A stretch of DNA of 64,000 bases, taken from Bremia lactucae (taxonomy: Eukaryota; Oomycota; Peronosporomycetes; Peronosporales; Peronosporaceae). Every line of letters begins with the position of its first letter. Position 1 is the first letter of the stretch. Below are positions 39,979-60,705 of this stretch, one piece after another. The stretch spans positions 2,226,901 to 2,290,900 of the forward strand of contig NC_090616.1 of NCBI RefSeq assembly GCF_004359215.1, written 5' to 3'. The notes beneath the pieces were generated by a model, which was given only the letters and a program-made list of their open reading frames with translations, ran no database searches and was not told the origin of the DNA. The translations under genes were made by a program, and so were the position numbers.

Positions 39979-40070
39979 GTGCGCGAGAGTGATCGAGTGA
40001 ACTAGCGGCGCGTAAAGCTGCTCGCAGTTCCTCTCTCTACTCTGTCGAATTTAAAAATGTAAATTCGTTC

Positions 40071-40086: not shown

Positions 40087-40639
40087 TGTAACGGGCTAGA
40101 GTTGCCCTAATGTTACACAGTCCCCATTAAGTACATTTGGTACTTAAGGGGATGGTCAATTACTAAATAATAGTAATTAGACCCAACACTCGGGTGTGGT
40201 GCACATTTGTGACCAACCCTTGTGGATGTGATGCACATGGGTGCATTCACATTAGGAGGGATGACGCCCAGCGTCATCCATGATGACGGCTAGCGTCATC
40301 AGTTACGCGAGGTATCTATAAAGATACGCTCGCAATACATATTAAATGATATCTATAGAGATATCATTTTAATTGGTAAAAATAGGTATTTGTATTTAAT
40401 TCTATTAAATATAAATCAGTCTGAAAATTACTACCTACTTGGTAAGTGCGCACGAGGAGACGGATTACCGCTCCCGTGACGACACTTAACCAGAGTTCTT
40501 AGTGTGTTGGGTGAGGTCGCTTGCGCGCCCACCACAACTACCTCGCTGCACGCAAGAGAAGCAGGTTTAACCGCTTCCTCGCTGTGCTAGGGTGTGTGCT
40601 TTAGTAGAGCGTGGCCGCATTACGACGTGCCCGCCTACA
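40087..40639 (+). repeat. Family B 3' LTR
   Basis: TGTAACGGGCTAGAG to GCCTACA, 553 bp, with both GATGACG stem-loops. It is followed by TTGGTAGCACTAG, the leader, and ATGGCGCAG at 40640-40777, so it also looks like the 5' LTR of a second, truncated copy. Confidence 0.92.
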
Positions 40640-40777
40640 CTTGGTAGCACTAGAAATCCTTCCCACGACCCGCATCTCTGCGTGTGTACGTGAGGATGAG
40701 CCTCAATATTGATTGGGCTCATTTTCCCCACCTCTCCGAACATCATCGGGAGGTGGCAGGGCTAATGGCGCAGTTAG
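40640..40777 (+). mobile_element. Truncated second family B leader
   Basis: Primer site TGGTAGCACTAG, a leader almost identical to 34158-34281, and the gag ATGGCGCAG are present. It is cut after the first few gag codons by a reversed family D LTR. Confidence 0.85.
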
Positions 40778-41087
40778 TTGTAAGACTTCAAAGTAGGGAA
40801 ATCATAAAACTGTATTAATATATAAGTTCTTACGCATCTCAACTAATTTTATATTAATAACAAACTATCTATGGCGCCTACGTGCGCGCCGCACAATCGT
40901 GTTTGGCGGGGTTACTTTAAACTTAAATCAACCACTTATTAGAACTACCGTCGTATTGCGTCAATATTACCAAAATTTGGTAGCACCGGAACCATTAAGT
41001 CAAAATTAAGAAAGATAATAATTTTGCTCGTCTTTATTATTTCCTCTTATAGGAAATAATATTTATGTAACGGGACACCCCGTTACA
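40778..41087 (-). repeat. Family D LTR fragment, reverse strand
   Basis: The right end read in reverse is TGTAACGGGGTGTCCCGTTACATAAAT. The body has TTCCTCTTATAGGAAATAAT, GGTAATATTGACGCAATACG (reverse) and the GCGCCGCACAATCGTG block. The LTR 3' part is missing. Confidence 0.8.
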
Positions 41088-41228
41088 GTTAGGCACTTAA
41101 GCCCATTCGGCCAGCTCGTTAAGCTGTAAAGAAGTGCTAGCAACACTATTGACGAAGTGTGTTGCGCCTCCACTTGATGTATTTCTTATGATTGCCTGTA
41201 AATGCATCAACAATGCATGTTCCAGAGC
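41088..41228. other. Short spacer left of element C
   Basis: No feature; its last bases plus 41229-41233 (CTAAC) are the target site of element C. Confidence 0.5.
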
Positions 41229-41233
41229 CTAAC

Positions 41234-41718
41234 TGCAATGTGGCACACATCGGTTGGAGAACCGTTGTTGTGGTGCATTTACTTTATGGGTAAAATACCC
41301 TTTTATTTAATTTTGTTATAGTTAGTTACTTAAGTCCCATTTATTATGGGTAACAAATGTGGCGCCGCCAGGTATAAATCTGGCGGCCAAAATCTGTTAT
41401 AAATTAGCTAAGGTAAGATTTATAGATTTGAATGATTCAACAAAGTGCAGTTCCCCTTTTGATCTTAAAGCGTTTAGTGACTTTCTAAGGCTTGCGCATA
41501 GATCTATAAGAGATAGAAGCCTTTCCAAGGTATATCCTCTTGAGCACTAGTTGCCACTTGGTTCTACAATCCCCTGAATCCCTTGAACTAGGAGTACTTA
41601 AGCTTTAATAGCTTGTACGACTCCCTGAGTTGTTTAACTCATTAGTTCAATAGAATTAAGTCACTCTTTGAGTCTGAATGTCTTCCTCTGACTTTGGGAG
41701 CGAGGTAGCTCCGCTACA
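41234..41718 (+). repeat. Family C 5' LTR
   Basis: 485 bp, TGCAATGTGGCACACATCGG to CCGCTACA. The TG start is followed by C in place of the T seen in the 3' LTR. CC then TGGTAGCACTCGTAGTC (41721) follows, the putative primer-binding site. Confidence 0.92.
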
Positions 41719-41720
41719 CC

Positions 41721-41737
41721 TGGTAGCACTCGTAGTC
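41721..41737 (+). other. Putative tRNA primer-binding site of family C
   Basis: TGGTAGCACTCGTAGTC begins 2 nt after the LTR. The TGGTAGCACT core recurs after LTRs of families A (12487) and B (13507, 40641) and, reversed with one change, in D (18994). Confidence 0.7.
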
Positions 41738-41778
41738 AATCTACGCCTGAGTCTGTAAAAGACTAATTTCTCACGAAA

Positions 41779-42720
41779 ATGGAAGAGGTTCCAAAATTAT
41801 CAGAAGCGCAACGCGCCGCTTATGACAAGCTCGATGCCTTATTCGGGCTTAAGCACGTGGAATTTATTATCTCCCAGGGACCAGAGGTCCTGCAATGCAA
41901 GGCTTGAAGCCTTCATGCGGTACGAAGCCTCCCTGATCGGTCAGGTACAAAACCACTTAGCGGCATCTATGCCACCCGGTACATCTCTGAACCTGACTCT
42001 GAGCCGATGGCTCGCCCTCTAACTGTAACTGCGAAGAAATTTGAGTGAAAAGAGGGAGAAAATTTCCATTTTTGGATTATGCAGATGGAAATGTCCATTG
42101 ATTCCGCCTTGTTCTTAATAGAACGGCAAAAAAAAAAGGTGGCTATGGCGGTTTCCAACCTTGGAGGTAGAGCCATGGAGTGGGCACTTTCGTGCAGCAC
42201 GTCCATAAACGACGCTGTTGCCTCATAGGATTCGCTGAAACAGCAAATGACCAGCTTGTTTGCACCGCCTGGTGTGGTATTTCGCATGCAAGCACAGCTC
42301 CTAGCGACTCGACAGGGTAAAAGGACCCTAGGGGCTTTTGTCCAGGAGTTGAGAGCTCTCATTGCATCTATGCATCAAGACCCGGTGCAAGAAGCAATTG
42401 TAGTGACCATCTTTATTGGGGGTCTCAATGAGGGCGTTATCCAGACGGAATTGTTCCGATCTCATCCGGCTACGTTCGAAGAGGCAGTTACCATAGCGCT
42501 ACGCGCCGAGTTTGACTTTAAGTCTGCTCGCGTTAGCACGCCTGTTTACCGAACAAGCTCTTCGAGCACATGGGTTCCGTCTAATAGACCGGGACCTATG
42601 GATTCAAGCCTCGTTGAGGAAGGAAAAGAGGCTCTCCAAGCTGGGAACAGCATAAGACCATCCGTAGATGTTATATGTGCGGAAACATGAAAAATTTACG
42701 TCCGGCCTGCCCTCTTCGAA
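41779..42720 (+). pseudogene. Family C gag
   Basis: ATG at 41779 gives EEVPKLSEAQRAAYDKLDAL, open for about 43 codons. It then shifts frame and continues with AFMRYEASLIGQVQNHLAA, a matrix/capsid-like part (NLGGRAMEWALS, LKQQMTSLFAPP, ATRQGKRTLGAFVQELRAL) to about 42690. A zinc-knuckle relic CYMCGNMKN...PAC follows in another frame, with the usual His replaced. Several stops. Confidence 0.78.
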
Positions 42721-42889
42721 ATTCGTATAAAGCTCGAAAGAGCTCCAACTCCGACCTATACCAGAGATCTGGTACGGTGCGGGAAAACGTCGATACCCAG
42801 TAGGTGCGGGGCGCCCTATTGGGGAAGACTTAGGTTCTGTTGAACCTCAAGGAGGTGAGAATAATCAGAACCTAGCCCCAATAAGCTCG

Positions 42890-43312
42890 GTGCTTATTGG
42901 CACGGGGCGAGAGTACAAGCCTGGCTTGCTAGTCGTTCAAGCGACTGTAAAGGGCTTTGATAAGCCGTGGTCAGTTTTAATTGACTCAGTAGCGTCTTGT
43001 AATTATGCTCGACGCCTTTCCCATAAAGGGAGTCAACAGTACGTTGAGACACTACAAGCGCATGAAGGTGATACAATCACTGTTCGCTTAGCGACTGGAA
43101 CTCGTGTCACTGTTCCCAAAGTTCCATTGAACTTAGGTATAAAGTTTCTGGACTTTGACAGTATGGAACGCTGTCTCGTCCTTGATTTGGATTCGAGATA
43201 TGATCTCATCCTTGGTATGGCCTGGTTAGAACACCATGAGCCATGGATCGATTGGAGCTCTAAGACCGTAAGCGCCACGCGCAATGTCCCTAGCAAAGTT
43301 TTGGAGTCATGA
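42890..43312 (+). pseudogene. Family C aspartic protease
   Basis: A retropepsin-like domain with SVLIDSVASCNY (Gly of the D-S-G-A core changed to Val), TVRLATGTRV, and YDLILGMAWLEHHEPWIDW. The frame is open but the active-site change argues against activity. Confidence 0.78.
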
Positions 43313-43559
43313 ATCCACCTTTGCTAGGCAATAAAAGAGCTATTGGCGCGGGTGATTGAATGGGTCTGTTAGTGTTTTAAACATTGGCATGTCTGAGTTA
43401 ATAAACTTTAATTTTAAAAACATTAATTCTGAGCTCCAACTCAGCAGAAATAAAGGCAACGGGACGTACTCCGTCGAGTGACACTCGTTGTAATAACGAT
43501 TCACTGAATGCTGAAAGCATTGTTGACCTAAGGCCGAATCATCAAGGGTGCAACTTCCC

Positions 43560-43785
43560 TGAGATACATGGAGTGGCACGTTTAAGTCCACCGAGTATGG
43601 CCGAGGTGGCACCATACTGAGTGTCAGTAGTGACACTGTTGGCGGTTCGCCAGGACCTCAAGGCTGCAATATTCCTGAAATACGTGGAGTGGCACGTCTA
43701 AATCCACCGAGTGTGGTCGGCCGAGGTGGCACCATACTGAGTGTCAATAGTGATACGATTGGCGGTTCACCAGGACATTTTGGGT
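43560..43785 (+). repeat. Tandem ~120-bp coding repeat in the family C PR-RT spacer
   Basis: Two units starting at GAGTGGCACG (43571 and 43687) each run through CCACCGAG, GGCCGAGGTGGCACCATACTGAGTGTCA and GGCGGTTC-CCAGGAC. The first unit lacks 4 nt present in the second. The encoded unit is about 40 residues (RGVARLNPPSV, GGTILSVNSDTIGGSPG). Confidence 0.85.
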
Positions 43786-44290
43786 CGAACTCTCCTAATG
43801 CACGTGAAGCGACACGTAACGTTCGCTGGATAAGGAAGTTGAGTTACCTAACTCCTTGTCGGATGTCACATTAGACATATGCAACCAATACAGGCTGTAA
43901 AACCCGGGGACGTGAATGTCCCGGCCTCTAAGAGGTGTATTGTCTCCACTTCAAGCCAGGATGGTCACGAAGCGTGTATACCCTCACAGAGTGATACGAG
44001 TGAGCAATTAAATACGCTAAAAATGGTGTAACCGGTAACATTGAGGGGGAAGTTAGCCTTGCGGCAATCCCCTCGTTACATGCTCTTTTAGAGCTATACG
44101 AAATGTCTTTTGATGAGTGCGGTCGAGCCTTAAAAGCTGGTGACTTATCTGAAATGGTGGTTATTCGACTTATAATTGAGTTAAACTCATCGTCACTTCC
44201 AGACGAAGCTGTCCTGGATGACACAAAAGATGCACTTAGTGCGCGAAATGGGTCAAAGATCTTTAAAGATCCTACGGATCCCTTTATTAC

Positions 44291-45300
44291 TTGATCAAGG
44301 AATTCCAAGATGTGGTTTGTAATAATCCACCATCTGTTTTACCTTTGGATAGAAGTATTCGTCATGAAATTGACTTGGTCCCGGGAACCAAATACTGTGT
44401 CACAAGACAATGGCCTTTACCAAGGGAGCAGTGTGACATCATTGACTATTTCTTCCGTGCTAAGCACGAGGCTGAAATGGTACGAAAGAGCGAATCTCCT
44501 CATTCGGCACCGAGATTTTGTATCAAAAAGCCAAATGGTAAATAGCGCATTGTACATGCTTATAGTAAGCTTGCTGCTGTCACTATACCAGCACAAACTC
44601 CCATTCTTGGAAAGGATGTTCTTCAGAATAATATGGTGGGATGTACAATTTACAGTGCATTGGACTTAATTGATGGTTACAACCAATTGCTCATGCGAGC
44701 TAGCGATATCCCGCTTACAGCGGTTAGCACCCCAAGCGGCATGTTATGGGAGTGGCTGGTTATGCCACAAGGGCTTTCCAACGCCCCGGCAATATTTAAT
44801 CGTCTAGTGACGCAACTGTTTTGCCCTCATCGAGGTTATGCACAGACTTATTTCGATGACATTTTTGTCCATAGTCGTGTGGATCAGGGTCGGTCGGATA
44901 TGGAAAATCATTAAGACCATTTGCGAGCAGTGCCCGAGTGCATGCGCACAAACAAATTGTATGCCAATGCATCTAAATGCATTTTTGGCGCAGACGAAAT
45001 TCATTTTTAGGGATGCTTTATTGGAAAGCGAGGCCTTAGAGCGGATCCCGCTAAGGTAAAAGCCATAGTAGATTGGCCGGTTCCTAAAAACCAAAAGGAT
45101 CTGCGTAAGTGGTTGGGTCTCGCCAATGATTTACACAAATATAGCGAAGATTACGCTAATATGACTAGGCCATTATCTAATCTCCTTCAAAAGGATACAG
45201 AATGGTGCTGGACTAGCACGGGAAATAATGCTTTTCGAGCAGTTAAGGATAGTCTTATCCATGCCCCGATTCTAGCACTGCCAAACCCAAATTAACCTTT
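44291..45300 (+). pseudogene. Family C reverse transcriptase
   Basis: RT blocks are in order: HEIDLVPGTKYCVTRQWPLP, SAPRFCIKKPNGK with a TAG at 44543, HAYSKLAAVTIPAQTPI, ALDLIDGYNQLLMRASDI, LVMPQGLSNAPAIFNRLV and the polymerase box YFDDIFVHS near 44855. A further stop is at 44912 and frame changes follow. The connection domain (LRKWLGLANDLHKYSEDYA) reaches 45295. Confidence 0.85.
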
Positions 45301-45900
45301 CAGTGTCGTCTGTGACGCATCAGATTTTGCCATTGGCAGTGCTCTGTTACAAACAGATGTTGAGGGGCATGAACGTGTTATTGCGTTCAAGTCTAGACAG
45401 CTTAAAGCTGCAAAAAGAACTACCCAGTTCATGACAAAGAGATACTGCTATGAAGTATGCTCTCGTCAAAATCAGAGTTCATCTGCTCGGCTCTAAGCCG
45501 TTTGTGATATCACGCGTCATTACGCACAGCGACTAAGTCGCTCCACCTCTCACAGAGAATGGCCCGATGGCTATCCTTTTTCGCGGAATACAACTTCGAG
45601 GTGAAGTATAAGCCCGGCAAGCAAAATGCCTTGGCCGATGCGTTATCACGCAGGCCGGATTATGAGCTTTCTCATATAATGACTATCTTGTTGCCTATTC
45701 CTGAATTAATCCGTTCGGCTTACGCCAAGGATGAACAGTGTGCAGCTCTGCTACGAGCTCAAAAGAACTCTGATTCAATTATTAAATTACCGGCACGTTT
45801 GCATGCAGATTACATCGATTTTCTATCGATATCGACCTGTTGCTTTATTGCGCAGACATCGCGGATCCTCCGCATGTCGTTGTTTCTCATGATGAGGATT
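45301..45900 (+). pseudogene. Family C RNase H and tether
   Basis: VVCDASDFAIGSALLQ opens RNase H. After frame breaks, ARWLSFFAEYNFEVKYKPGKQNALADALSRRPDYE (45559-45670) gives the conserved end of the domain. A linker leads to integrase. Confidence 0.8.
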
Positions 45901-46920
45901 TGAACCACCGAATCCTCTATGAGGCACACGATACTGTCCTTGGTGGTCCTCTCGGTAGATAAAAGACCTACGGCTCTATAAGCCAGAGTTATTGGTGGCC
46001 CAAACTTTATAAATGGGTCAGCACATATATTCGCGCATGCGAAACTTGCTAACGGGTCAGGACGAGAAGGCTTGCCAGTGGCGCAGCAGTATCCTCGGCG
46101 AATACTGCTGCGCCACTGGCGAGTCTTCTCGTCCCCATAGGTTGCTGAGAGTCCATTAGTATGGATTTTGTTCTCGGTCTACCGAAAGATTTAGCCGGTA
46201 ACTCCGGCATAGTGGTCTTTGTTGACCGATTGAGCAAAATAGCTCACTTAGCGGTCGTGCCGGATCCCATTGATGGTGAAGGTACAGTGGCAATTGTCTC
46301 TGATCGGGATCCCCGTTTCACGGGTAAATTCTGGAAATCAATTTTCCGAGTAGATTGGATATGCCCACTGCGGACCATCCGCAGACCGATGGTCAAACTG
46401 AACGTGTCAATCGCGTCGTTGAAGACGTTTCACGCAGCGTACACCAAAGCGCTGGAGCTCAATGCTCCCAGTGGTGGAATTTGCCTCTCATAACGCTGTT
46501 CATGCCTCTACAGGCTATACTCCGCTCTATGTAAACGGTCTTACCCACCCACGCGTTCCACTAACGATACCACTACATGGTTCCGGGCTTAATGGGGGAA
46601 TTAGCCGATAGACTTGCTGGTATCAGCCCTGTTACCGTTCGGAAACAAGTAAGCGAGTTTCTCGTGACGCGGTTTAGTGTCTTAAGACATGTAAGGGATA
46701 CGATGGCTGATAGCCAAGACAAACAAAAAGAACAAGCAGATGCCAAAGGCAGAAGCTGTATTAATTCCTATATGGTCGGAGACCGAGTTTTACTAAACGC
46801 TTATAATCTACCTACCAACTTGGTTTCTGCGGTCTTCAAGGCCAAATTGCGCCCGCGCTTTATTGGACCATTTACGGTCGTGACCAAGAAGGGCCTAGCT
46901 TTATACGCTAAACCTTCCTA
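45901..46920 (+). pseudogene. Family C integrase, internally deleted
   Basis: The zinc-binding HHCC region is at about 45905-46055 (HRILYEAHDTVLGG, YWWPKLYKWV, RACETC). A ~31-bp inverted duplication (46062-46132) interrupts the linker. Catalytic Asp1 is in SMDFVLGLP and Asp2 in VSDRDPRFTGKFW. About 60 residues usually found between them are missing. The Glu region is frameshifted. The post-core region (46577-46918) includes DSQDKQKEQADAKGR and LRPRFIGPFTVV. Confidence 0.8.
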
Positions 46921-47001
46921 GCAAGCTGTGTACACACCCAGTGTTCTACGTTGGCTTGCTTAATCCATATCGGGACCCTTCCCACGTGGACTTGAAGGCG
47001 C

Positions 47002-47595
47002 TTGCGCCGAGACAGGCGGTCGTGCCGCAGATTGCTGCATCCTCAACCAGGATATCCAGCTGGCTCTCTAAACGAGGCTGCTGACGCCCCAGCGTCGAAA
47101 GACGGCCCCGAACCGCCTCAAAAGAGCTCTCAACCCGAACAAGGACCTCACGAAGAAGTTGCACCTCGTGCCATAGAGCATCAAATGCTTCCGCCGAAAT
47201 TTCGGCCCCCTCCCGCGCTGCTGGATGCGCGAGGGAACCTTCCGTTTCATGTAGAGAAACTTTTAAAGCGACGTCGACGTGAGGGTCAATACCAGTATCT
47301 GGTGAAGTGGCTAGGGTGCCCCTCTTTTGAAAACTCTTGGGAGTTCGAGGTACCTTTTCGGCACATTGCCCGTGCGCCGTTGACCTTTGTTAGCGCCAAG
47401 CTCAGGGTTAACTCGCGTCAAACGACGCTTCCCACCACTAAACGTGGATTGGGTGGATCTAAAGCCTCAGTGCGGCTTCGATCCTTGATCAACCGAAGCA
47501 CTGAAATATCGACTAGGCCTCTGGCCTTTAGCTTAACGAAAACGCAGCGAAGCTTCCGTCCAAACGAACATCACCTCTATCTGCAAACTCTCTGA
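47002..47595 (+). pseudogene. Family C pol C-terminus with chromodomain
   Basis: Open for 197 codons. The chromodomain (FHVEKLLKRRRREGQYQYLVKWLGCPSFENSWE) lies at about 47245-47345. Chromodomains of this class steer integration to modified chromatin. The frame ends at 47595, overlapping the antisense ORF by about 67 nt. Confidence 0.82.
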
Positions 47596-48244
47596 TATTC
47601 CAAACATTACGAAGTCGGCGGGCCAGGTGGACCCAGTTCTCAAATGAGACTTCGTTTTCACTCCTTGTTTCGTTTGGAAACAAAACGATCGGAATTTTCC
47701 TCATGGAGGTCACAAAAGCCCCACGGGTTTGATCACGTAAACGCGTCAGATACTGGCTTCGCGTCATTACCTTTGACGTAAGGTATTGCTCATGAAGAGC
47801 GTCGCGGGCAGCGATCTCCTCCGGCGTCCTCGCCAGGTCACCAGAGATCCAGATGGCCAAGCTATGACCCGCTATCTCTTTGAGACGCTCGTCCGCACTA
47901 AGCGGAGTGAATCTGTATTCACTATGAGCCTTAGCTTTCGCTATCTCGGCAGCTCGACGACGAGCTCTTCCCTCTATGAGGATAATCTGCTCTTGCTCTT
48001 CATCGAGCGAAAACGTAATAATGTTGGACTCAGGGTCCCGTGTCCTACTCAATGCAGTTAAGACATCAGCGGCACCACGTTCTGGAAACGGATTTGGGGC
48101 TCACCGACGTTTATCCGGAGGAGAAGGCGTGAGCGAACGCCGCTCTTTTTCCTTCTCCTCTGATTGAGAGTGACATTCAAAGTCTAACATTCCCTCATCG
48201 CCGAGGAAGGTGCTCAGAGTTTGTGACTCACGCTTGATTGTCAT
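47528..48244 (-). CDS. Antisense ORF of family C element (one in-frame TGA)
   Basis: Opposite to gag-pol, ATG at 48244 (MTIKRESQTLSTFLGDE) opens a frame through SQSEEKEKERRSLTPSPPDKRR to a TGA at 48101-48103. It continues in the same frame for a further 190 codons: DPESNIITFSLDEEQEQI, RARRRAAEIAKAKAHSEY, FTPLSADERLKEIAGHSLAIW, TPEEIAARDALHEQYL, FENWVHLARRL, and a stop at 47528. About 238 residues in all with one stop. I recognise no family. It fills the space between chromodomain and 3' LTR, as the family B antisense ORF does. Confidence 0.5.
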
Positions 48245-48342
48245 TAGAGAAAGGAATGAAAAACACAACCATACGGTTAGCTGTTTAGGTTTCAACCTCA
48301 AAGAGGAAATGAAGCGAATTTAGTCACTCGGTGTCAACAGTC

Positions 48343-48355
48343 TGATTGGGGAGGG
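48343..48355 (+). other. Polypurine tract of family C
   Basis: ATTGGGGAGGG lies directly before the 3' LTR start TGTAATGGGGCACAC. Confidence 0.8.
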
Positions 48356-49011
48356 TGTAATGGGGCACACATCGGTTGGAGAACCGTTGTTGTGGTACAA
48401 CAACTTCATGGGTAAATACCCTTTTATTTAATTTTAAAATGGTAAGTTACTTAAATCCCATTTATTATAGGTAAGAAATGTGGTCGCCGCCAGAAACAAA
48501 ACTGGCGGCCAAAATCTTTTTTAATTAGCTAGGGTCAGTTTCTTAGATTCGAATAAATATATTAAGTGCAGTTCCTCTTTTGATCTTAAAGCCTTAAGTG
48601 CCTTCCTAAGGCTTGCGCATTGATCTGTAAGAGATAGAAGCCTTTCTAAGGTTTATCCTCTTGGGCGCTAGTTGCCACTTGGTTCTACGAACCCCTGAAT
48701 CCCATGAACTAGGATTCCTTAAGCTTTAATAGCTTGTACGACTCCCTGAGTTGTTTAACCCATTAGTTCAATATAATTAAGTGACTCTTAGAGTCTGAAA
48801 GTCTTCCTCTGACTTCAGGAACGAGGTAGCTCCGCTACACTAGTTACCACTTGGTCCTATAATCCCCTGAATCCCTTGAACTAGAATTCCTATAGCTTTA
48901 ATAGCTTGTACGACTCCCTGAGATTTTAAACGCATTAGTTCAATAGAACTAAGTGACTCTTTGAGTCTGAAAGTCTTTCTCTGACTTTGGGAGCGAGGTA
49001 GCTCCGCTACA
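48356..49011 (+). repeat. Family C 3' LTR with internal ~172-bp tandem duplication
   Basis: TGTAATGGGGCACACATCGG to CCGCTACA at 48839, then a second copy of the last ~172 bp (CTAGTTACCACTTGG...CCGCTACA, 48840-49011). The target-site duplicate follows the second copy, so the duplication is part of the LTR. The two units differ at several positions. Confidence 0.88.
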
Positions 49012-49016
49012 CTAAC

Positions 49017-49489
49017 AGACGCTCAGAATTTGCGGAATTACACTCTTTGAGCGCCATTGACGTGTATTGCGATACTCAGAAGCGCAATGGAGACAATGAT
49101 TTTTTTACCCACTGTGTGGCATCTGACCGAAGATTTCAAGAACTTGCTCTATCAATGTTTTGAAAGTTGTTTTATGCAAATCGTTGCATATCAATTTACT
49201 TTCATTTACAAAACCCAGTGCGTATTTTTTTATCTACCGATTGCTGAATTTAATAAATTCAAAGAGAATTTTGGGGATAATTTGCATTGGCTGTTAAATA
49301 TTCGAATCATACAGAACTGAAACTTAAAATGTCGATTCGTCTATGCATTTCATTATCCAAGTTATCTGATCTGTAGTCATCGGAGCGCCCTGTCCAAGTC
49401 TTCATCGCAACGTCTTTGCCTCATCCGGTACATAATTGGTCTTTTCAATGCAAGCGCTGCCGTCCTCTTCGTGAAAGCTAGTGTGTACT
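49017..49489. other. Upstream region of the transporter gene
   Basis: An open frame at 49057-49320 has no recognisable domain and may be chance. The rest is presumed promoter DNA. Confidence 0.45.
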
Positions 49490-49497
49490 GTCATTCC
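49490..49497 (+). promoter_or_regulatory. Oomycete-type initiator (Inr)
   Basis: GTCATTCC matches the TCATTYY initiator known for oomycete promoters. It lies directly before the first base of the riboswitch P1 stem, so the transcript would start with the aptamer. Confidence 0.55.
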
Positions 49498-49606
49498 ATC
49501 AGCGAGGGGTGCCGTTTGGCAGCCATGGACCAGTTCCATGCGCTGACCGGCTGAGAAAAGACCCTTAGAACCTGATCCGGTTCATACCGGCGGAGGGACT
49601 GCTGAT
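49498..49606 (+). promoter_or_regulatory. TPP (thiamine pyrophosphate) riboswitch aptamer
   Basis: All conserved blocks of the THI element are present in order: P1 strand ATCAGC (49498-49503), GGGGTGCC (49506-49513), a long variable P3 arm with a CATGGA/TCCATG stem, CGGCTGAGA (49548-49556), ACCCTTAGAACCTGATCCGG (49561-49580), P5 CCGG-TTCATA-CCGG, CGGAGGGA (P4 closing strand) and GCTGAT (49601-49606) closing P1. P2 pairs GCCG with CGGC. The extended P3 is typical of eukaryotic TPP riboswitches. It sits in the 5' leader of the transporter gene, 142 nt before the ATG including a leader intron. Known eukaryotic versions act mainly through splicing. Confidence 0.95.
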
Positions 49607-49672
49607 TTACTAATGTGTTAACGATGCTTGTTTCTTTGTGACTGCGTCCAATCAATTTTAGATTCGAGCCAG

Positions 49673-49736
49673 GTAATTTCTACGAATTGCCCTACTTTTG
49701 TAAATAATCCGTCTTATTATATAATATTGTCCTCAG
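49673..49736 (+). other. Predicted 64-nt intron in the 5' leader
   Basis: CCAG|GTAATTTC donor and TCCTCAG|G acceptor. It is non-coding, as no frame joins it to the protein. Its position between aptamer and start codon makes it the natural target for TPP-dependent splicing. An ACTAAT branch-like sequence at 49610-49615 with a TTTTAG acceptor at about 49661 offers an alternative acceptor. Confidence 0.6.
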
Positions 49737-49747
49737 GTTCTATCATT

Positions 49748-51331
49748 ATGCTCGCAAGTAGCGTAACCTATGGCGTCATGGCGGGTACCCTCATCGTCGT
49801 ATCTGCTTACGCAATCATTGTAAGTCGACGTATGGAAATTAATTCCGTAACAACTTTTGTCAGGTACGTTGCCTCTGTGATGTCTACTGCCACAATTTTT
49901 TTTTCCCATACATTTGCTGGGTAGTGCGAAGAACTCGACAACAACGCTACGATTAGCGTGGTGTCTCTTTTCAGCTGGCATCGGGGCTGGGACACTCTTT
50001 TCATTCCCTCAAATTGGCGTCGATGCCGGATCATGGGGTGTGATTGGTTACGCCATGTCGGGAGTCGTTGGGATGCTCGTGCTGGCGCTCGTGGGTCCAT
50101 ACATGCGGTCCGCTCTGGGTGAAAACAACACCATGACCGACGTGGTTTCCACGCGCTTTGGCTACACGATGCAGCTGTATGTTTGCGGCATTTCTATGTT
50201 TTACCAATTCATTTGCCTTGCGTCCGAGTATACGTGCATCGCCCAGCTCACGACCATGTTGTCACCGAATGCACACCCAATCGTCACGATTCTTATTGTC
50301 GCATTTCTTACAAATTTGTACCTGACTATTGGAGGACTTCAAGCAAGTCTTGCTACGGATGTGTGGCAAGGAATTGGCGTCGTTGGCCTCGTGACCGTGG
50401 TCTGTGTTGCCATGTTTCTCCACGTGTCCATCCCTGCAGACGCGTGGGCAGCTACGAACGTTGCTGCCTTCACGACCGCAGGCTTTGAGACGCTCGTGAC
50501 GCTTAATATCGCTGTCACAGCTGCCAGTCTCTTCTTCACGGGCTTTTGGCAACGTGTGTATGCTGCGTACGATGACAATGCGCTTCGCAATGCTGCTTCA
50601 CTTGCTAGTATTATCATTGCACTGTTTACCGTGGCACTTGCGATCGCGGGGATGGTGTCGTACCTTGCCTACCCCGACGGCGTCCTATTCTTTGCCATTT
50701 TAATCGACATGGGTCGTGGCTGGCAAGTGCTGATTGTTGTGGTTATCGCCATGCTCTCTAGTGGAGTCTCCGACTCGATTCAGATGGGACTCGTCGCCGA
50801 ACTCACGACATGTTTTCCCAAACTTTCGTTGCTTAATGCTCGTGTAATCTGCGGTAAGTACGATTTATTGGTTATGTGGACGTAGTGTGGTTTACATTTA
50901 GTGTGGTGTACGTAGTGCTGCTAAATGCGCCGGCAATTGCGATTGGGTACCAGCAATATGATATTTTAACGCTATATTTGATTGCGGATTTATTATGTAC
51001 GGCGGCTGTGGGACCAATGTTGCTCTGCACCTGGAAGCGTGCCACTCGTACGGGCGCGATAGCTGGGAGCGCTGCTGGTTTGGTCACTATTTTTGTGTGC
51101 GGAGTCATTATGCAGGGCAAGTTCGTAGGTGGCTTCAATTGGTTCATCTTGCCAGAGGGTCTTTACTCGCAAAACAGCATGATTACTTTTATTGTTACAC
51201 TTATTATCCCACCGATTGTAACCGTGGGTGTGTCGTTGATGACGCAATCAGCCAAAAGCGAAGACGCTAAGGTCGACAGCTACGCACTTGAATTCTCTCC
51301 CGTCTTGGAGACAACTACCAAGACCTTTTAG
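49748..51331 (+). CDS. Sodium:solute symporter (SSS family), riboswitch-controlled; putative thiamine-related transporter
   Basis: Three exons: 49748-49863, 49925-50853, 50916-51331; introns of 61 and 62 nt (GTACGT...GGTAG; GTAAGT...CGTAG). The joined frame is 1461 nt, 486 residues plus stop, with no breaks. It is a polytopic membrane protein with about 12-13 hydrophobic segments. The first junction restores FVSAKNSTTTLRLAWCLFSAG, then GIGAGTLFSFPQIGVDAG; the second restores NARVICVLLNAPAIAIGY and YLIADLLCTAAVGPM. This matches SSS/DUR3-like carriers, which couple uptake to cation gradients. The TPP aptamer upstream suggests thiamine or a precursor as substrate; thiamine-repressed SSS genes with TPP riboswitches are described in marine algae. 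A poly(A)-type AATAAA-like signal lies near 51412. Confidence 0.9.
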
Positions 51332-51505
51332 CGTGTTTTTCGCCTTTATTTTTTTCGCTTTTATCAAATTGTTTTTACGAAATTAATCACATTCAAGTCG
51401 CATTCATTAAAGAATAAAATTGTAATTGAGACCGCTGCCCAACTCCGTCGATAGTGGTGAGGCTGGCGATGTGCGTCACGTCCGACTTGGTCTCACTCGT
51501 TCTAG

Positions 51506-52008
51506 TGTAACGGGCTGAAGTTACCATTATTTTTCACAGTTCCCGTTAACTACATTTGGTGTACTTCATGGGATGGTCAATCACAATATTATAGTAATTA
51601 GACCCAGCACTCGGGTGTGGCTCACATTTGTGACCAACCCTTGTGTATGTGATGCACATAGGTGCATTCACATAGGAGGTATGACGCCTAGCGTCATCCG
51701 TTACGCGAGGTATCTAGAAAGATATGCTCGCAATACAAATTATGTGTTATCTATAGAAATGACATTTTCATTGGTAAAAATAGATATTTATATTTACTGC
51801 AATTAAATATAAATCAGTCTGAAAACTACTTTCTACTTAGTAAGTGCGCAGGATGAGCCGGATTACCGCTCCCGTGACGACAATTAACTACAGTACTTAG
51901 TGCGTTGGGTGAGGTCGCTAACGCGCCCACCACAACTACCTCGCTGCACGCAAGAGAAGCTGGTACACCGCTTCCTCGAGCGTGACCGCATTACGACCTT
52001 CTATCTAC
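51506..52008 (+). repeat. Family B solo LTR, 3' end deleted
   Basis: TGTAACGGGCTGAAG at the start, a single TATGACG-CCTAG-CGTCATC hairpin, and the rest of the LTR to ACCGCTTCCTCGAGCGTGACCG, where ~25 bp are missing. It ends next to a family A LTR. Confidence 0.85.
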
Positions 52009-52010
52009 TA

Positions 52011-52443
52011 GGGTGTATCGTTACTTGAGTATTAACAATGAAAGGTTGCTAATAAATATTTTTTTCTTATAGGTACATAAATAAAAGAGAATATATTACA
52101 TTATATAAGTATTATTTAAACTCTTAATAATTGGTAGATATAGACCATTATATTTACCTGCTTCGTGGTCCAGTCAGTGCTGGACGCGCGCAAAGAGTCA
52201 GATAATATTTTAGTTCATATTTTTACATTAGTGATAATTAAGTTAGCATTAAATGATAGAATGACAAAAAAGCACAATAATATCATTACAGCTTTCGTTT
52301 TAACATTCTTTTAAGTAGTTTGCCTTAAAAGAGTCTTCCTCTGCACGTACGGTGTACGTGAAGTGACCAGAGGCACCACTCACACTAAAGCAGTGTAAGT
52401 GGACTTGTACTGAAGCAGTACAAGTTAATAGTGCCCCGTTACA
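52011..52443 (+). repeat. Family A solo LTR, 5' end trimmed
   Basis: GGGTGTATCGTTACTT (first bases of the LTR missing) to CCCCGTTACA, with the GCGCTG/GTCCAGTCAGTGCTGGAC variant and the CTTGTACTG-AAG-CAGTACAAG palindrome. Confidence 0.85.
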
Positions 52444-52690
52444 CTACTACTGAACTTATTATATTAATGACTACCTATGTATGGCGCCTTCTTGCGCACC
52501 GCACAATCGCGCCTTGTGACGATTGGCGGGGGGTTTCAAACTTAAATTGACCAATCAGTTATAGCTTGTGTCTATTGCTTCAATATTACCCAGTAGGTGA
52601 ATTCTGTATTATCAAGTCAGAAAAATATCTTTGTCTCATAAGATGTAAATTAATTATTATTCTATGAAGAAATAATACTTATCCGTTACA
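52444..52690 (-). repeat. Family D 3' LTR, truncated, reverse strand
   Basis: It has the GCGCACCGCACAATCGCGCC and GACGATTGGCGGGG blocks, ending CCGTTACA on the right. A purine-rich tract (reverse CAAGGAGGAATGA) lies immediately to its right, as expected before a 3' LTR. Confidence 0.78.
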
Positions 52691-55600
52691 TCATTCCTCC
52701 TTGATCAACAGTCACAATAGTAACTGATGTGGAGGGACAATAGCACTATCTCTTTCCCTGAAATCTGCTTTGTTCTGTTTTCATTCTAAATACAATCTTA
52801 TCCCATCATTGATTTTAGACTAAAAAGCAACATGGCGACGAATAAGTCTGTTCGCGATCTCGCAAGACCGCTAAGCTGACAGCTGCATGAATCAATGTAA
52901 TGTGGCTGTCGGTAAAGCAAATGATCTATCAGGCACTCATGCGTTTACCAAAGTAGATAAGTCACCTGCTTCTCTGTTATAGGTGATTATGTCTCGACTT
53001 CAGCCACTTACGTTGCAGGTGGCGGTGGCAAGTCACCGCCATGAGCCGGCTTATGGCTAGTGTTAAGGCCACCGGATCACACGGGCCAAGTCCGTTAAGC
53101 CTTCGGGTTTTTACGTGACCACTAAAGAGATTATGACGACTTTGATGAGGGTTTTATAAGAACGAATTTACTTTCCATTTTCCAGTGTGTTGTCATACCC
53201 AACAATTATTGCTTACATATCCAGAAGATTTTGCGACTCGCCTGATCTCTTTGGTGGAGAGTCGACTGGTAATGACTCCGTGGGCGATGATCACCCTGGT
53301 GACGCTAGTCTGCATAACTAGGATCGAAGTAGTCCTGAGGAGAAATATGCTGCTGGTGTTGCTAATTTGCATCACCAGGAAAGGGGTAACTCTAGATTTC
53401 TCTTCAAGGGCCAAGTTAGCGTTAACGTTAACATGAGTCAATACAAAGAGACCGTAATGCGTTGCGGTCTGCTCCTGAAAAGAGCCTTGTTTACCCTTAA
53501 AGACTAACTAAAACCATTGGTCCGGTATGACCAATGATCAGTATAACATGCCTTTATTTGACTCTATCCAGGCTTCACATAGCCTGGTGAGGACTAAATG
53601 GAACTCTTTATCGATGCCTTTTCTGGCATCGGTGGTATTTTTATAAGAATTTAAAGGATGTTAAACCTTTGTTCCAAGCTTGAATAGATTTTCTTACAAA
53701 ATATGCGAAATGTAGGCCGTGAGGTCTGGCTATACAAGTTGGGTATTATCCGTGAACGGTTCGAAAAACGGACCATTTTTCGTGCACGTACATGCTGCAC
53801 CGCTGTCAAGCAAAGCAGGGATACCTTGTCCCTCGTGAGGAGACTCATGCCCATGTTGTTATTAAGGGCAGGTCATGCCCTAGGGAAGCTTGTTTCCTTA
53901 ATGATCTCCAATGAGAAAATTCTCGATCTGAAGCCAATTCGCAGGGCAATCCGTGGAGTTGAAGTGTCGTGTCGATACAGGCATGAGCAGGGCCTTTGGC
54001 TGTGATCGATTCCGAGGCGGCAGCAAGGTGTACCATCTTGCGAAATCGATCAAAAAAAACAAGAATACCATTAGCCTTGTGAGCGTCTTCGAAAGATCCA
54101 AATAACAAGTCTATAGATACGGACTGCCAACATTCTGCCAGAACAGGCAGAGGTTGTAAAGAAGCACGGGATGAAGCACTGGGCTTTACCCGTTGGCAAA
54201 CTTGCAAGCACGTACGATGCGAGGCGTGTCGTCAGCAATGGCTGCGTAATTCAGTAAACTTTGCAGGTTGAGTATCGATCCGTCGAGGATCGATACTGTT
54301 TCGATCACCCAATGAAGAATAATTTGTGATGGATTTCTGACATAAATCCATCAACTTTTGAAAGGCTCATCTTCGTGGTAGGCTCTACTGATGTCGTCAA
54401 GTAATGTCGACGACAAAACACTTATTCTTAAAAGAGTAGGCTTAAGCCCACTGTTATGAGCAACCGGCTCAAAGGCGGGTCGGCGCGAAACAGCATCAAC
54501 GACGACATTGAGTCGTCCTGGCTTATATTCAACGGAGAAGTGATACTCCGCGAAGAAAGACAATCATCTCGCCATTATTTGCGAGAAGTGTGGACTGTTT
54601 ATGAACGCGCGTAAAGATGCATAGTCCGTTTGAACATTAAACAGTCTGTCTCCCAAAGTGTAAGCCCAAACTTAGCCAGTGCAAACTTCATGATAAGAAG
54701 TTCTTTGCCATGCACTGGATAGTCGCGTTCAGATGGTTGAAACTGACGCACTTTCGTCTATCGATGAGCTGCTGAGAATCCATTCGTTCTCAGAAAATAC
54801 TAGTGCCAACCGGATATCGGCCAAATACTCATCATCTCATCTGTGACAAGTAAGCAGATCGGCTTGACTTTGCCATTACGCAGATCAGGCAAGAACCGTT
54901 CCGGCTCTAGCGTTGGCAATTAAGTTATCGCCGAATTAAAATTTGGAGGCGCTAGTAGATCAAGCGTATAAGCGCCTTTACTAAATCTATTGCTTACTAA
55001 AACATTCAAGGTCTCAGTTACTCTTTGGAACTTATTTCAAAATTTACCTGGAATTCATAAACCAGTGTTTTCTGGAGAATCCCCAGAGAATCTTGGGGGC
55101 TTATTATCTCAAGATTTATTTTCGAATACTATCTTCCCTCACTGCCTTGAACTGTGGATGCGCTACCACAGCGAGATCCTCTACGATCGACTCTCCGGTC
55201 GATCTAGGATCTATGCCATCTTTCTCTTAGACAGACGTTTCAATTTTCTTGGATGCTGCTTTTCAAGCGAGCATCCTTGTTTCGTACGATTCATTTATTC
55301 AACTGGTCAAACTTCGACGCTGCAGGTGCTATGCACAGCCGTCGGTATCTAACTATACATTATGATGCGTTTTCACACTGAGGTCTTGTGCAGTCGTGCT
55401 AACGATTAACCCACAAGTGAAGCCATCGCACTTACTCGTAGGACATCCTCACGCTTGCGAACGCTCCAAGACGTTCTTCAGATGACACTCAGTTAAACGA
55501 CAAACAGGCACCGTCACGGCTTGATGCGCCACTTTATGCATGGCTCGTACTTTCTGAGCCATGGCAATCCAAGAATTACGCTAAATTTGACATACAAATC

Positions 55601-57103
55601 AAGTACAATGAAATTGTCATCGTACTGATTACCCTTTAACGTCTACTGTAAACCAGCAACACGTTTCTTTACTGTTACAGATGCGCTTGTGGGTAGGCGC
55701 ACTGTCATCCTCGTAAGAGGGATATCGCGCTCAACGAACATGAGCATGCGATATTCTAGCGGTTGACGCCAAATAAAACTCGTCGACGCCCCACAATTGT
55801 CTAGGGATTCAGTAATAATTATTGCCACTTTTATTTTTAAGATGATGAGGTAATCCTAACCACCTTTGGCAGTTATACACAATATTTACGTTTGAGGAGC
55901 AACTTTCGTAAAAGGCCTGCTAATTCTTTTAACGTTGCTGGATCAGTAGGGCGATCCGAACCTTCTGACCTCAAATGTTTTTTTTTTGACGACCTCCTTG
56001 CCGTTGCGATTTCGCAACAGCGTCGGATCCGCGTCCTCTGCTTTTTCTGGCGGGAGGTTGATCGTTTTGCCCCGTGTTTCTTGGAACTGGGCGTGAGGTA
56101 CCCATTTTCTTAAAACGATTGCTTTTTTTGCAATTGTTTGTTATTTAAAGAGCGAGGTTTCTCACTCTATATATACGAGAAGTCCATAGCTTCTGGACCC
56201 ATGCTTTCTCGGAGGACGATTGCTCCAAAGTGCACAAAAGACTGTTAAAGGCTAAAATTCTCCTGTTCCGCTATAGAAATTACTTCTCAAGCGACTTTAA
56301 TTCTAGCCAGAACAGGTGGGTCTTGTCTGGACCGTCTCCAAGTCTTTTACTAAACACAATTACCTGTGTTTGCTCGCCAATTGGATGACTTACGATACAA
56401 TTGACCAGGTATCGTGCATGTTGGGCGTAAACGTGTCGATCACGCTTGCCCTGCTTCAAATCCAGGAGCTCGGCTCGAGCCCTGTATTCAGCACGTGGTG
56501 GCTCAAATGTTTGTTCGAGCCGGATCATAAAGATCTCTTGCGACAAAAAAAGTAATAGGTGGTGAAGCTCAAGCCCCAAGGCCCAAGATTTGGCACGCCA
56601 TGCAAAGTTGGACATGCAACTTTTCACTTTTGTCGTATCATCACTAATTCGACGTGCTTCAACGGCATCATCTAACTCGATGAACCATCTTAATAGGGAG
56701 TCTCCCTCGACTGCCTTGAACTAGAGATTTCGATTTATGAGCTTTCAATCGTCGTGGAAGCATCGACCCAATAGCAACATGTACATGCTGCTGTCTCAAC
56801 AGTCACAATTGATGAGCACCCTGTTCTCTCAACACCCCCGCGTGTTGAGAGCCTTGTAAGTGAAGCATGACTATGTTTCCTTGGGCCCCATGGAGTCCGT
56901 GTTAAATGAACTCGGCTATGGCCGCATGCTTTTCATCTCTACCCAGATTGTACAGCATGGCGCCAACGGCTGGCCTGCCTACGACCGAGTCAATCAATTA
57001 AGCAAACCCTTCACGCATTGCGCGGAAGCCTTCTGGAGGCGCACATGTCCAAATTTGACGGAACGTGCGTGGGCTGTTGAGCGGACTACGAAGTCCTATC
57101 AGG
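52691..57103 (-). mobile_element. Family D gypsy element, reverse strand, heavily decayed
   Basis: Reading leftwards from the 5' LTR: gag (56627-56280: SCMSNFAWRAKSWALGLEL, LEQTFEPPRAEYRARAEL, LKQGKRDRHVYAQHAR), protease (55828-55643: ERDIPLTRMTVRLPTSASVTVKKRV with NCGASTSF for the core), degenerate RT region about 55340-54700, RNase H end (54563-54351: MSFFAEYHFSVEYKPGRLNVVVDAVSRRPAF) and integrase (54207-53845: VCQRVKPSASSRASLQPL, WQSVSIDLLFG, FDRFRKMVHLAA, LASDRE). The 3' third (52691-53700) is not recognisable. Many stops. Confidence 0.75.
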
Positions 57104-57587
57104 TGTAGCAGGGCACCTTTCACTAGTACTAATCAGTTCAATTGAACCTTAAAATGATAACTGTAAAGTTGAGGTACCTCGAAACATCAGCTACTTAAAA
57201 GTACCGAGAAGGTTTCTTAACAGCCAAGGGTCTTTAGCTACCAATGTTATTTGAGGGCTTATAAATAGAGAAATGTAAAACTGTATTAATTTATTCAGTT
57301 ACCTACGTAACATTCAATCTATCTACTAAACTATTTATATGAATAACTAACTTCTTCTTGCGCATCGCACGATTGTTCCTTCTGACGACTGGCGGGGTCA
57401 ATTTAAACTAAACTCAATCAATCAATCAGAATTAATGTCTATTGCTTCAATATTGCCCAAATAGAAGAATTTTAATATTAGCAGTCAAATAATTAATAAA
57501 AATAATTATTGTACCTCTTACTATAATATCCCTTTTGTGACACATAATATTTATCATTATTTAATGAGGAAATATTTCGTGTGTTAC
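57104..57587 (-). repeat. Family D 5' LTR, reverse strand
   Basis: It starts TGTAGCAGGGCACC on the left and shares the GCGCATCGCACGATTG, GACTGGCGGGG and GTCTATTGCTTCAATATTGCCC blocks with 52444-52690. The right edge near GTGTTACG is decayed. Confidence 0.7.
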
Positions 57588-57715
57588 GCTTCACCGCAAT
57601 ACACTCACACCCCACTAGACTATAAAATAACAAGCTCACGTACAGGTGTTACGTGAAAGCACTACAATTGATGGTGGAACGGCTCAAATAATTTGGCACC
57701 TGATTAAAGCTCAGT

Positions 57716-57806
57716 TGTAACGGGCTTAAATTGCCTTGTGTATCACACACACATTAAGTACACTTTGTGTACCTAGTGGGATTGTCAGTTACTTCATGTG
57801 TGCCAT
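57716..57806 (+). repeat. Family B LTR, first ~90 bp
   Basis: TGTAACGGGCTTAAATTGCC, then TTAAGTACACTTTGTGTACC and GGGATTGTCAGTTACT. It is cut off at about 57806. Confidence 0.7.
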
Positions 57807-60705
57807 TCCAGGCGAGATGTGCGGTAAGTTTTTTTATTGTGGTCGAATAGTGATGCAAATCCATACATACCACAACTGGTTCGGTGCGCAATAGGTACAC
57901 TCGAAACTCTACAAAAGAGCATACTGAATTGAAAGTAGCTCGTTCTCCTGAACCTGGGTCTCGCTTCCGCAGTTTTCAAACCCCGAAACTAGTAAGAGAT
58001 GACACAACTAACGCCGTCGATATCTTTCTGCATAAGCGCGCTGCCGGTTGTACAATTACTCGCATCGCAGACGACGCTTAAAACTTTTCCGTGGTGAGCA
58101 ATGCCAACACCGGTGCCTATACAAGTGATCGCTACACTGATGTGCACGCATCGACATGTTTTTCTGACAAACCCATCCTGCATCCTTATAAGGAGGTCAG
58201 ACAAGGGCTTAGCATGCTCTGCATAATTCTCGCTGTGCTTATGCAAATATTTAGCGAGCCCTAAGAAATTGCGCAAATCATTCATATGTCGTGGGGCTGG
58301 CCATTCTACTACAATGTTATTCATGCGCTCGTATACCATGTGCACCTACGATGCAGCCCAGCACATATATCTCAAGTACCTCTTTGACTCACTTTTGCAA
58401 GTTGGCGTACAATTGGGCGTCACCCAGAGTCTTCAACACGGCGCCTGCATGACTCTTATGCGGCTCTATTTCGCCCACCTGTCCTCTGCCGTGCGCGAAT
58501 ATATCGTAAAATTAATGGGGCGCGCAGGCACGGTGCTGACGCATCACGTGAGCCACCGCTAGGTTAAATGTCGCCGGTGCGTTTTATATAACTTGTGGCA
58601 CCACAAGCTACTCGCAAAGCACACCGCTGGGTTGGTTACTGTCGTTTTGGATACATCGGACTCTCTCATGAGTACCTGATAGTAACCATCGTCTGAATCC
58701 AACGCAAAAAAGATAGTTGACTTTGCTATGGATTTCGACAGATTATCTTTCCACGGGATTGGCATTTGCGCCGGTATGGTCGCCCTGTTCACCTTATTGT
58801 AAGCATGTACATTCGTGGATCTCTCCTTCCTTAAACTCGGATAGGAACAGATTCCACGACATCTCCGGGAATTTTACTAGCTCCTCGGCAGATGTAAAGA
58901 CTTACCGGAGCACCTCGACTGAGGATTGTTCTGCAACATTGTCTTTGACGGCCTCGAACTCCTAGTTCGAAGGCCCGTACTTTTAATTGATCTGATTCAT
59001 AGGTCACTCGTTTAGATGTGCCTTTGATCGTCCTAATCTGTCGGGTTCTCGTTCTTCGTGTTGCCACGACCTTTGACTCGAAAACGGGTGCCGTTGTACT
59101 CCTGGCTAATGGGGACTTTCCAACCGCACCAGGCTCTAGGCACTATGTCGGTCATGTGATGCTTGACTCCTACTCAGCTTTTCGTCTGCTGCCACATCAT
59201 CTCGGCTCTGTGCATGACTAGGGGACACATGACTACTTGTAATTGCCCTTTTAACTGCCTCAGTCTCCAAGAGCTGAGTAGAAATTGGTGCTACCTGACT
59301 TCCAGCGAAGCACCTTCATTAACACCAGGCTGAGGGCTCTGGGTATAATGATGTGATGTTTGACATCCCGTCAACGTACTATCCAATGTGTTTGTAACGA
59401 CATTTTTTCAGGAGCACATCCTTTCCGGTGTTCTGCGTAGAGTTCGCAACTGTGCGTGTACGCCAGTCTATCCATGGTTGGTACTTTGAAGTCATACGGA
59501 CTCTCCATTCCTAGCACTGTGAACTTCTCTTTACAAGGGAAGTCACTAAAGCTGAAGGCGAGTTCTACCTGAACTCCCTCAGACTTAACGAGTGCGCCGT
59601 TCGCCAAGCGAACGAGCGCCTCTTCTCGCTTTCCATCCTGGCAAAGCGACCCAAACATCGCCGGCCTCTTTCTTAGAGCCACGAGTTTCACAAAAATTTC
59701 AGATGCACCCGGCTTCACTAGGGGAGGCATCACCTGGTCATTGCTTCCTTCTTGAGCGCTTATAGACCAGTAATGTCGAGGTCCGAAATTTTGAGACCCT
59801 GGGACTACGCTACCCACTTGTTTGACAACTCTGAACTTGGCGAGAGCTCTAGAGTCCACGTCAGTTAGGCATCCCGCCCCTTCTGTGCCCCCGCATTTAC
59901 CGACCCCTCCGTGGTCGGGGCAGAACTCATGCGGCTCACACGCTGGTTATTGCCACCGCCCTTTGGAAAGGGAGTCCTCTTACTGGGTGTCGTTGCACCA
60001 GAAAGGACCCTGACATAGCAGCGAGCCATCACATGGCCACGCTTGCCATATTTTAAACAAACAATGTCTGCGTTGCCCAACTCCATTGGAGTGGTATCTG
60101 TCCTCTCGGACGACGGCTTATACCAAGCTGTTGCCGAGGCACTGTTGTAGGATTGAATCTCAACAAGAGCAATTTGAATTGCCTCTTCCATCGTCGACGG
60201 CACGTTTCTAAAAAGGGCCTGTCGCGATGAGCCATGACGTAGGTCGCTCATAAACGTGGGCACTTTAATGAGCTCCGGAATCGGACCTACCATAATGAAG
60301 GCCAGCAGCGAGCGCATCACGGCCCATACTCTTGCAGAGAGCGCTTTGCTTTTCGTGCCCCAAAGAAGCGCGCCTGAATTAACACCTCGTTGTTCGGAAG
60401 CTGATACATGGCGCGAATCTTTGTCTTCAAGATCGCCCATGTAATGAACGACTTACCGTACGCCAAAAGCGCCGAGTAAGCTCACTCCGAAGCCTTATCG
60501 GGCAGGTGCGACATGGCGGACGACACTATCCGGTTGTCGTCCTCGATGAAATGCGCCACACCGCCTTGTTCCACGGCTAAGAGCAAATGGACAATCGTGT
60601 GCGCTGCAGTTCCGTCTAATGAGGCGGGTCCATTTGAATTAGCCTCGGCTGACGCAGCCGAGTGGAGAGCATCTTAACAGTCCTGTTGAGAGCCTCGCTC
60701 CGAGC
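57807..60705 (-). mobile_element. Family B gypsy fragment, reverse strand: gag to RNase H
   Basis: From right to left: gag (60705-59865; VGPIPELIKVPTFMSDL, VPSTMEEAIQIALVE, knuckle CLKYGKRGHVMARC with the second Cys changed to Tyr), protease (59859-59371; KREEALVRLANGALVKSEGVQ, FSFSDFPCKEKFTVLGMES), PR-RT spacer, RT (58792-58559; ATIPAQMPIPWKD, DGYYQVLMRESD), connection domain (58345-58180; NDLRNFLGLAKYLHKHSENY) and RNase H (VVCDASNCTTGSALMQKD, about 58100). It is collinear with 34500-37600 of the main family B element. It is fused at 60705 to forward family D RT. Confidence 0.8.

Follow-up and report, generated by a model that had tools for sequence, protein, structure and literature searches.

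The window analysed here is a 64,000-nucleotide (nt) stretch of the genome of the oomycete Bremia lactucae, the lettuce downy mildew (RefSeq assembly GCF_004359215.1, contig NC_090616.1, positions 2,226,901 to 2,290,900 of the forward strand); coordinates below are positions within it, and the riboswitch and gene described lie on its + strand. An RNA that looks like a genuine thiamine pyrophosphate (TPP) riboswitch, and that presumably binds TPP, has its aptamer at 49495–49616, and is followed by a gene spanning 49748–51331 whose product resembles transporters of the sodium:solute symporter (SSS) family. The gene was resolved into three coding exons (49748–49863, 49925–50853 and 50916–51331, the last including the stop codon) separated by introns of 61 and 62 nt, and specifies a protein of 486 residues. 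The first two exons were delimited by reading frame and homolog alignment, and the start of the third was set from the junction seen in homologs.

The aptamer was identified with cmscan, which aligned the Rfam TPP riboswitch model RF00059 from end to end (model positions 1–105) with a score of 70.9 bits, the gathering score being 54.3. The E-value was 5.9e-12 when the whole 64 kb window was searched and 4.7e-14 in a search of 501 bases. No other match in the window exceeded the Rfam gathering scores; a snoR160 match at 49311–49374 reached 22.5 bits where 42 are needed, and was ignored. The covariance-model check proposed in the original prediction, made from the letters of the sequence, thus gave a significant match. 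That prediction had placed the aptamer at 49498–49606, and these very coordinates were recovered when the aptamer stretch was folded alone, P1 being formed by 49498–49503 paired with 49601–49606. The CUGAGA and GAACCUGAUC blocks are both present. The P3 region departs from the RF00059 model by a 26-base insertion, which forms an extra hairpin in the fold of the aptamer stretch alone, and by the absence of ten model positions. The L5 loop reads UUCAUA rather than UUAAUA, a form also seen in the bacterial aptamer L034. In the whole assembly (115,934,607 bases, 220 contigs), RF00059 gave a single match among the 49 of 2421 first-look candidates that were scored, and a DNA search of the assembly found no second copy of the aptamer DNA.

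The protein search returned 61 homologs at E ≤ 0.001, among them B. lactucae CCR75_007835 (99% identity), which identifies the organism. Named homologs with at least 50% identity came from Bremia, Phytophthora, Plasmopara, Peronospora, Pythium, Globisporangium and Lagenidium, together with unnamed environmental proteins, while the last 19 homologs (P0043–P0061) were 27–33% identical. At the last exon junction the relatives run from ARVIC (or similar) straight into VLLNAPAI (or similar), and the public Bremia model (P0001) is alone among 22 aligned sequences in having ten extra residues there; it apparently uses a 32-nt intron where the relatives point to one of 62 nt (50854–50915). The Bremia protein did not match the Pfam SSF model (PF00474), and matched TIGR00813 weakly (E = 4.3e-9, under the cut-off of that model). 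The Plasmopara ortholog P0005 did match PF00474 (24.5 bits, cut-off 22.8); P0023 did not. A profile of 22 family members recovered 17 distinct Protein Data Bank (PDB) sequences at E ≤ 0.01, including SGLT1, the choline transporter, DUR3, SiaT (5nv9) and vSGLT; the Bremia protein alone matched no PDB sequence. A structure model of P0005 built from a 10-row alignment (mean predicted local distance difference test score 80.2, predicted template modelling score 0.82) had as its ten best PDB matches human choline transporter CHT1, sialic acid symporter SiaT, SGLT2/1 and DUR3 structures, with template modelling scores of 0.71–0.80 by query length. Membership of the SSS/SLC5 family is therefore sound through the relatives' profiles and the modelled ortholog, and weaker for the Bremia protein taken by itself; its transport would be coupled to sodium. 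The claim that the aptamer precedes a sodium:solute symporter gene was borne out in this sense, the open reading frame (ORF) starting 131 nt 3′ of the aptamer. HMP/thiamine symporters (HMP, hydroxymethylpyrimidine) are described in PMC11452348 as marked by a Tyr in cTMD2, an acidic residue in cTMD3 and a Phe in cTMD6, and residues Y81, E140 and F242 of P0005, invariant in 10 aligned sequences, are candidates for these.

The leader between the aptamer and the gene contains a candidate 64-nt intron in the 5′-untranslated region (5′-UTR) at 49673–49736, with the donor CAG|GTAATT and the acceptor CCTCAG. Upstream of the aptamer, a candidate 5′ splice site, GTGTGT, was read at 49481–49482; spliced to the acceptor that ends at 49736, it would excise a 256-nt intron carrying the aptamer and four upstream AUGs. 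These AUGs (49525, 49538, 49613 and 49624) lie in or just past the aptamer, the first opening a 9-codon upstream ORF (uORF) at 49525–49554, and a further AUG is found before the aptamer at 49448.

Gene models from two Phytophthora species bear on how this leader is processed. The annotated protein P0003 of Phytophthora megakarya starts with MKPLEPDPVHTGGG, which is the translated P4–P5 strand, and its N-terminus aligned by tblastn without gaps to 49559–49687 (46.5% identity, E = 9e-9 in the window). P0016 of Phytophthora fragariae includes SARGAKCQPWTHS, for which the best match in the window, a weaker one, was 49499–49537 (10/13 identical, E = 0.029). Both are models that start inside or before the riboswitch, so that their N-termini hold translated aptamer upstream of the same ORF. 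The leader is not conserved coding sequence, since the Bremia frame holds a stop. The P0003 leader measures 132 nt from its first codon, which lies within the aptamer, up to the main ORF; by hand arithmetic, the corresponding Bremia distance is 128 nt without the 64-nt intron and 192 nt with it. This length fits a downstream intron shared by the two species, though it does not fix the donor. Exact conservation of the donor at 49673 in P. megakarya was considered and rejected, as the P0003 Gln lies two codons further on; the leader length alone fits. The N-terminal extensions of P0004, P0008, P0012, P0013 and P0017 had no convincing placement in the leader by tblastn; that of P0004, from P. idaei, looked similar by eye and, being unplaced, was not used.

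Taken together, we give a probability of about three in four to the idea that the 5′ leader of this gene, which would encode a sodium-coupled thiamine importer, carries a TPP-sensing riboswitch acting by negative feedback through splicing. At low TPP, an upstream donor (the best candidate being 49481) would be joined to the 49736 acceptor, removing the aptamer and uORFs; the resulting aptamer-free leader would allow the importer to be made. At high TPP, the aptamer would fold, and either the short 64-nt intron (49673–49736) would be removed instead or the long intron would be kept; the mRNA would then retain the aptamer and uORFs, and no importer would be made. Control is thus probably exerted by alternative 5′-UTR splicing, judging from the arrangement of putative sites in the DNA. 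In favour of the overall proposal stand the RF00059 match, the symporter family assignment, the aptamer pieces in the two Phytophthora models and, as described below, the thiamine gene set, the growth requirements of Phytophthora and the pairing of symporter and aptamer in bacteria.

Several observations weigh against this proposal. The upstream donor at 49481 is a guess, chosen as the best-looking site in the sequence. GTRNGT is the usual oomycete donor. A passage in PMC2483917 states this donor for Ostreococcus only. Unconstrained minimum free energy folds of the leader from 49440 (ligand-free, with no shuffle control) left P1 unformed, 49502–49509 pairing instead with 49465–49472, a candidate anti-aptamer strand; compared with the P1 form, this competing helix was better by 1.1 kcal/mol for 49440–49672 and by 7.5 kcal/mol for 49440–49760. 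In the shorter transcript the two forms are nearly balanced, which could be how the switch operates or could be a sign that the aptamer, in its context, folds poorly. The predicted helix also encloses the candidate donor at 49481. Masking of a donor by the aptamer, as in Neurospora, was examined through duplex energies and rejected as no better than background: the P4–P5 strand paired with the 49673 donor at –12.2 kcal/mol, a value equalled or bettered by 48% of the 151 G|GTR sites in 40000–60000, so this step finds no support in Bremia. The upstream donors paired with the P4–P5 strand more strongly (–13.8 kcal/mol for 49481, –14.6 for 49485 and –17.0 for 49428). Finally, diatom genes with predicted TPP riboswitches are reported to be unresponsive to thiamine (Llavero-Pasquina 2022, as cited in PMC11452348).

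The main rival is a block of translation by a retained aptamer: with no choice of splice sites, the folded aptamer and the uORFs would stop scanning ribosomes, and the 64-nt intron would be removed constitutively. The P0003 gene model keeps aptamer sequence in the mRNA, and its leader length fits removal of the downstream intron only; moreover, there are AUGs within the aptamer, including one in the P3 region. Such upstream AUGs would, however, depress expression under all conditions unless removed, P0003 may be a gene-prediction artefact, and splicing is the mechanism in those fungal cases described in PMC5997356 for which it has been tested. We hold translational control to be a serious but distinctly less probable explanation. 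Much less credible still is that the aptamer is a non-functional relic, its fold kept while the gene is no longer controlled. The longer leader, predicted to fold without P1, would suit such a relic, as would the predicted diatom riboswitches cited in PMC11452348 as lacking a thiamine response; yet the end-to-end RF00059 match scores 70.9 bits, the CUGAGA and GAACCUGAUC blocks are both present, and pieces of the aptamer are detectable in the two Phytophthora gene models.

The thiamine gene set of Bremia bears on the cargo. Thiamine pyrophosphokinase was found in the genome (E = 4.6e-33). THI4 and NMT1/THI5 gave no match there, while control matches were obtained in 14/14 and 12/14 genomes, respectively. 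Thiamine-phosphate synthase (ThiE) was not found, the one genome match lying below the cut-off and scoring far better as dihydrouridine synthase, nor was HMP kinase (ThiD), for which two Phos_pyr_kin matches scored highest as ribokinase and pyridoxal kinase, in every case under the NCBIfam curated cut-offs. These searches were run exon by exon, and a divergent gene could escape them. No other thiamine carrier was detected in the genome with PF02133; PF01770 had no match either, a result that is uninformative since none of the control genomes gave a match. This gene set agrees with the picture published for Phytophthora and other oomycetes in PMC10499793 and PMC5394536. According to the former, Phytophthora grows on thiamine, thiamine monophosphate or TPP, and HMP or hydroxyethylthiazole (HET) gives no growth. 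The original prediction spoke of a thiamine-requiring lineage, and the unfound synthesis genes fit such an organism; it also proposed uptake of vitamin B1 or a precursor, of which the uptake part agrees with an SSS-type transporter and the precursor part does not agree with the gene set. The cargo is likely to be intact thiamine (or its phosphates), because the enzymes that use HMP or thiazole were not found and imported HMP would be useless. A rival cargo is a precursor, HMP or one of its relatives, for which the SAR11 transporter ThiV, a likely HMP importer (PMC11452348), provides the precedent. The riboswitch-linked bacterial relatives, which are like SSSP/ThiV in this respect, would suit this cargo, but it was rejected as the principal explanation and appears very improbable, since THI4, NMT1, ThiE and ThiD were not found and without them HMP could not become thiamine, and Phytophthora is not rescued by HMP or HET (PMC10499793).

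To place the gene among its bacterial relatives, a collection of species genomes was scanned with the family alignment and the best 80 of 313 loci were kept. In 66 of these 80 loci (19, 17, 16 and 14 per 20) the gene of the relative was immediately preceded by a TPP aptamer above the gathering score. Thirteen of the 14 loci without one were titled Marinobacter and the other was a Nitriliruptorales bin; in three of them (L024, L058 and L073) pieces of the motif were found near the gene start. Fifteen of these genomes had 1–4 TPP matches each (33 in all, two of them below the cut-off), counts that are minimum values for genomes in which only some of the candidates were scored. With so few TPP matches per genome, the association of symporter and aptamer in bacteria is far above background, although the loci, mostly from Halomonadaceae and Marinobacter, are not independent.

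The Bremia protein was about 31–38% identical to the proteins of 21 bacterial loci. A tree of 47 rows was built. It took in 21 of the 80 loci, among which 15 are riboswitch-linked, together with 24 protein hits, the protein of the window and one other Bremia SSF protein; fungal Dur31/SSSQ and named SSSP sequences were left out. The ten rows labelled oomycete (one of which, P0034, is an unnamed environmental protein) formed a single clade (support 100/100) whose tentative neighbours are P0045, a marine transcript protein, and P0044, and then bacterial rows; the tree program warned of long branches meeting at P0045. The aptamers were also compared. The P4–P5 strand of Bremia had a mean alignment score of 25.5 with 13 symporter-linked bacterial aptamers and 20.3 with 16 other TPP aptamers (Mann–Whitney P = 1.7e-4), and whole-aptamer similarity differed in the same comparison (P = 6.5e-4). 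It covered 29 of the 33 matches, omitting three without a locus (one being the symporter-linked L087 and one below the cut-off) and L128, which was below the cut-off. Since the comparison was picked with the sequences already in view, between related genomes and without control for G+C content, the apparently closer likeness of the Bremia aptamer to symporter-linked bacterial ones is a lead only.

The position of the aptamer also differs. In the 14 bacterial aptamers read (of the 66), it abuts the ATG at the gene start; in Bremia, the aptamer end is separated from the AUG by 131 nt containing a candidate intron. At bacterial loci such as L034:2801–2908 the closing strands of the aptamer include GGAGG and run into the ATG, and a ribosome site may therefore lie inside the aptamer at such loci. 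A riboswitch and importer that moved as one cassette between bacteria and an oomycete ancestor would have had the aptamer re-used with a different output, abutting the start codon in bacteria, where it can hide the ribosome site, and standing before a 5′-UTR intron in oomycetes, where it would steer splicing; we think this scenario rather unlikely.

Other copies and remnants of the gene were noticed. On contig C9, at ~871 kb (L017:5394–5755), exon 3 only is duplicated at 95% DNA identity, and neither the rest of the gene nor the aptamer matched within the 10 kb examined near it. On contig C7, ~4–7 kb past the end of the window (L018:3923–4182 and 6828–7059), decayed exon 2 fragments with stops are what is left of an old copy of the symporter gene, close to the intact gene. 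A 0.2 Mb region of contig C9 (956894–1169357) holds eight PF00474 matches, one with internal stops, which form a cluster that belongs to a different SSS group and is distinct from this gene. On both sides of the gene (47002–47595 and 53845–54207) are ORFs that by eye resemble pieces of retrotransposon chromodomain and integrase. In Peronospora effusa, the model P0042 fuses PF17919 and PF17917, which we take to be retrotransposon domains, to part of the transporter, through either an insertion or a model error.

The original prediction held that a riboswitch-governed nutrient importer would be notable for an oomycete. The aptamer, the SSS-type gene and the oomycete origin are indeed borne out, but the novelty does not stand: Mukherjee et al. 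(2018; PMC5882874) had reported 37 TPP riboswitches in 15 of 17 oomycetes, including a widespread oomycete-specific sodium-symporter group. The Bremia case shares with that group its oomycete host and a TPP aptamer that would regulate a transporter of the sodium-symporter superfamily, and the gene likely belongs to this orthologous group. No paper with both Bremia and riboswitch was found in the literature searched, so Bremia would be unnamed in the main text of PMC5882874. McRose et al. (2014; PMC4260697) described TPP riboswitches in Phytophthora, and others linked to SSSF, SSSP and SSSQ symporters (algae) or to SSSP (bacteria). The Bremia gene thus adds one more case to a pairing known from oomycetes, algae and bacteria, and extends the link between this kind of transporter and TPP aptamers. 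For a crop parasite whose vitamin B1 synthesis genes were not found, it offers a specific, testable route, equipped with its own sensor, for drawing the vitamin from lettuce; no TPP riboswitch besides the one on this putative importer was found among the candidates scored in the genome.

Set beside these systems by description (no named SSSP/ThiV sequences were included), the locus resembles SSSP/ThiV (PMC4260697, PMC11452348) in having a TPP aptamer directly 5′ of an SSS transporter, and differs from it in cargo, likely HMP in SAR11 (PMC11452348, 2024) and probably thiamine in Bremia. It is also like the fungal Dur31/NCU01977 (SSSQ), an SLC5-type transporter that carries thiamine and whose TPP riboswitch represses it in the presence of thiamine (Donovan et al. 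2018; PMC5997356). The layout of the leader is similar to the Type I riboswitches of fungi and oomycetes in PMC5882874 (two alternative donors, one acceptor, a uORF between, and the aptamer in the longer intron): candidate sites and uORFs are present, and would be used in this way. In the Candida DUR31 intron, however, both donors precede the riboswitch (PMC5997356), while the second candidate donor of Bremia lies behind the aptamer, and in Neurospora THI5 switching is achieved by aptamer–donor pairing (PMC5997356), which in Bremia was not above background. The Bremia gene also makes it possible to study how a single aptamer is coupled to a bacterial and to a eukaryotic output.
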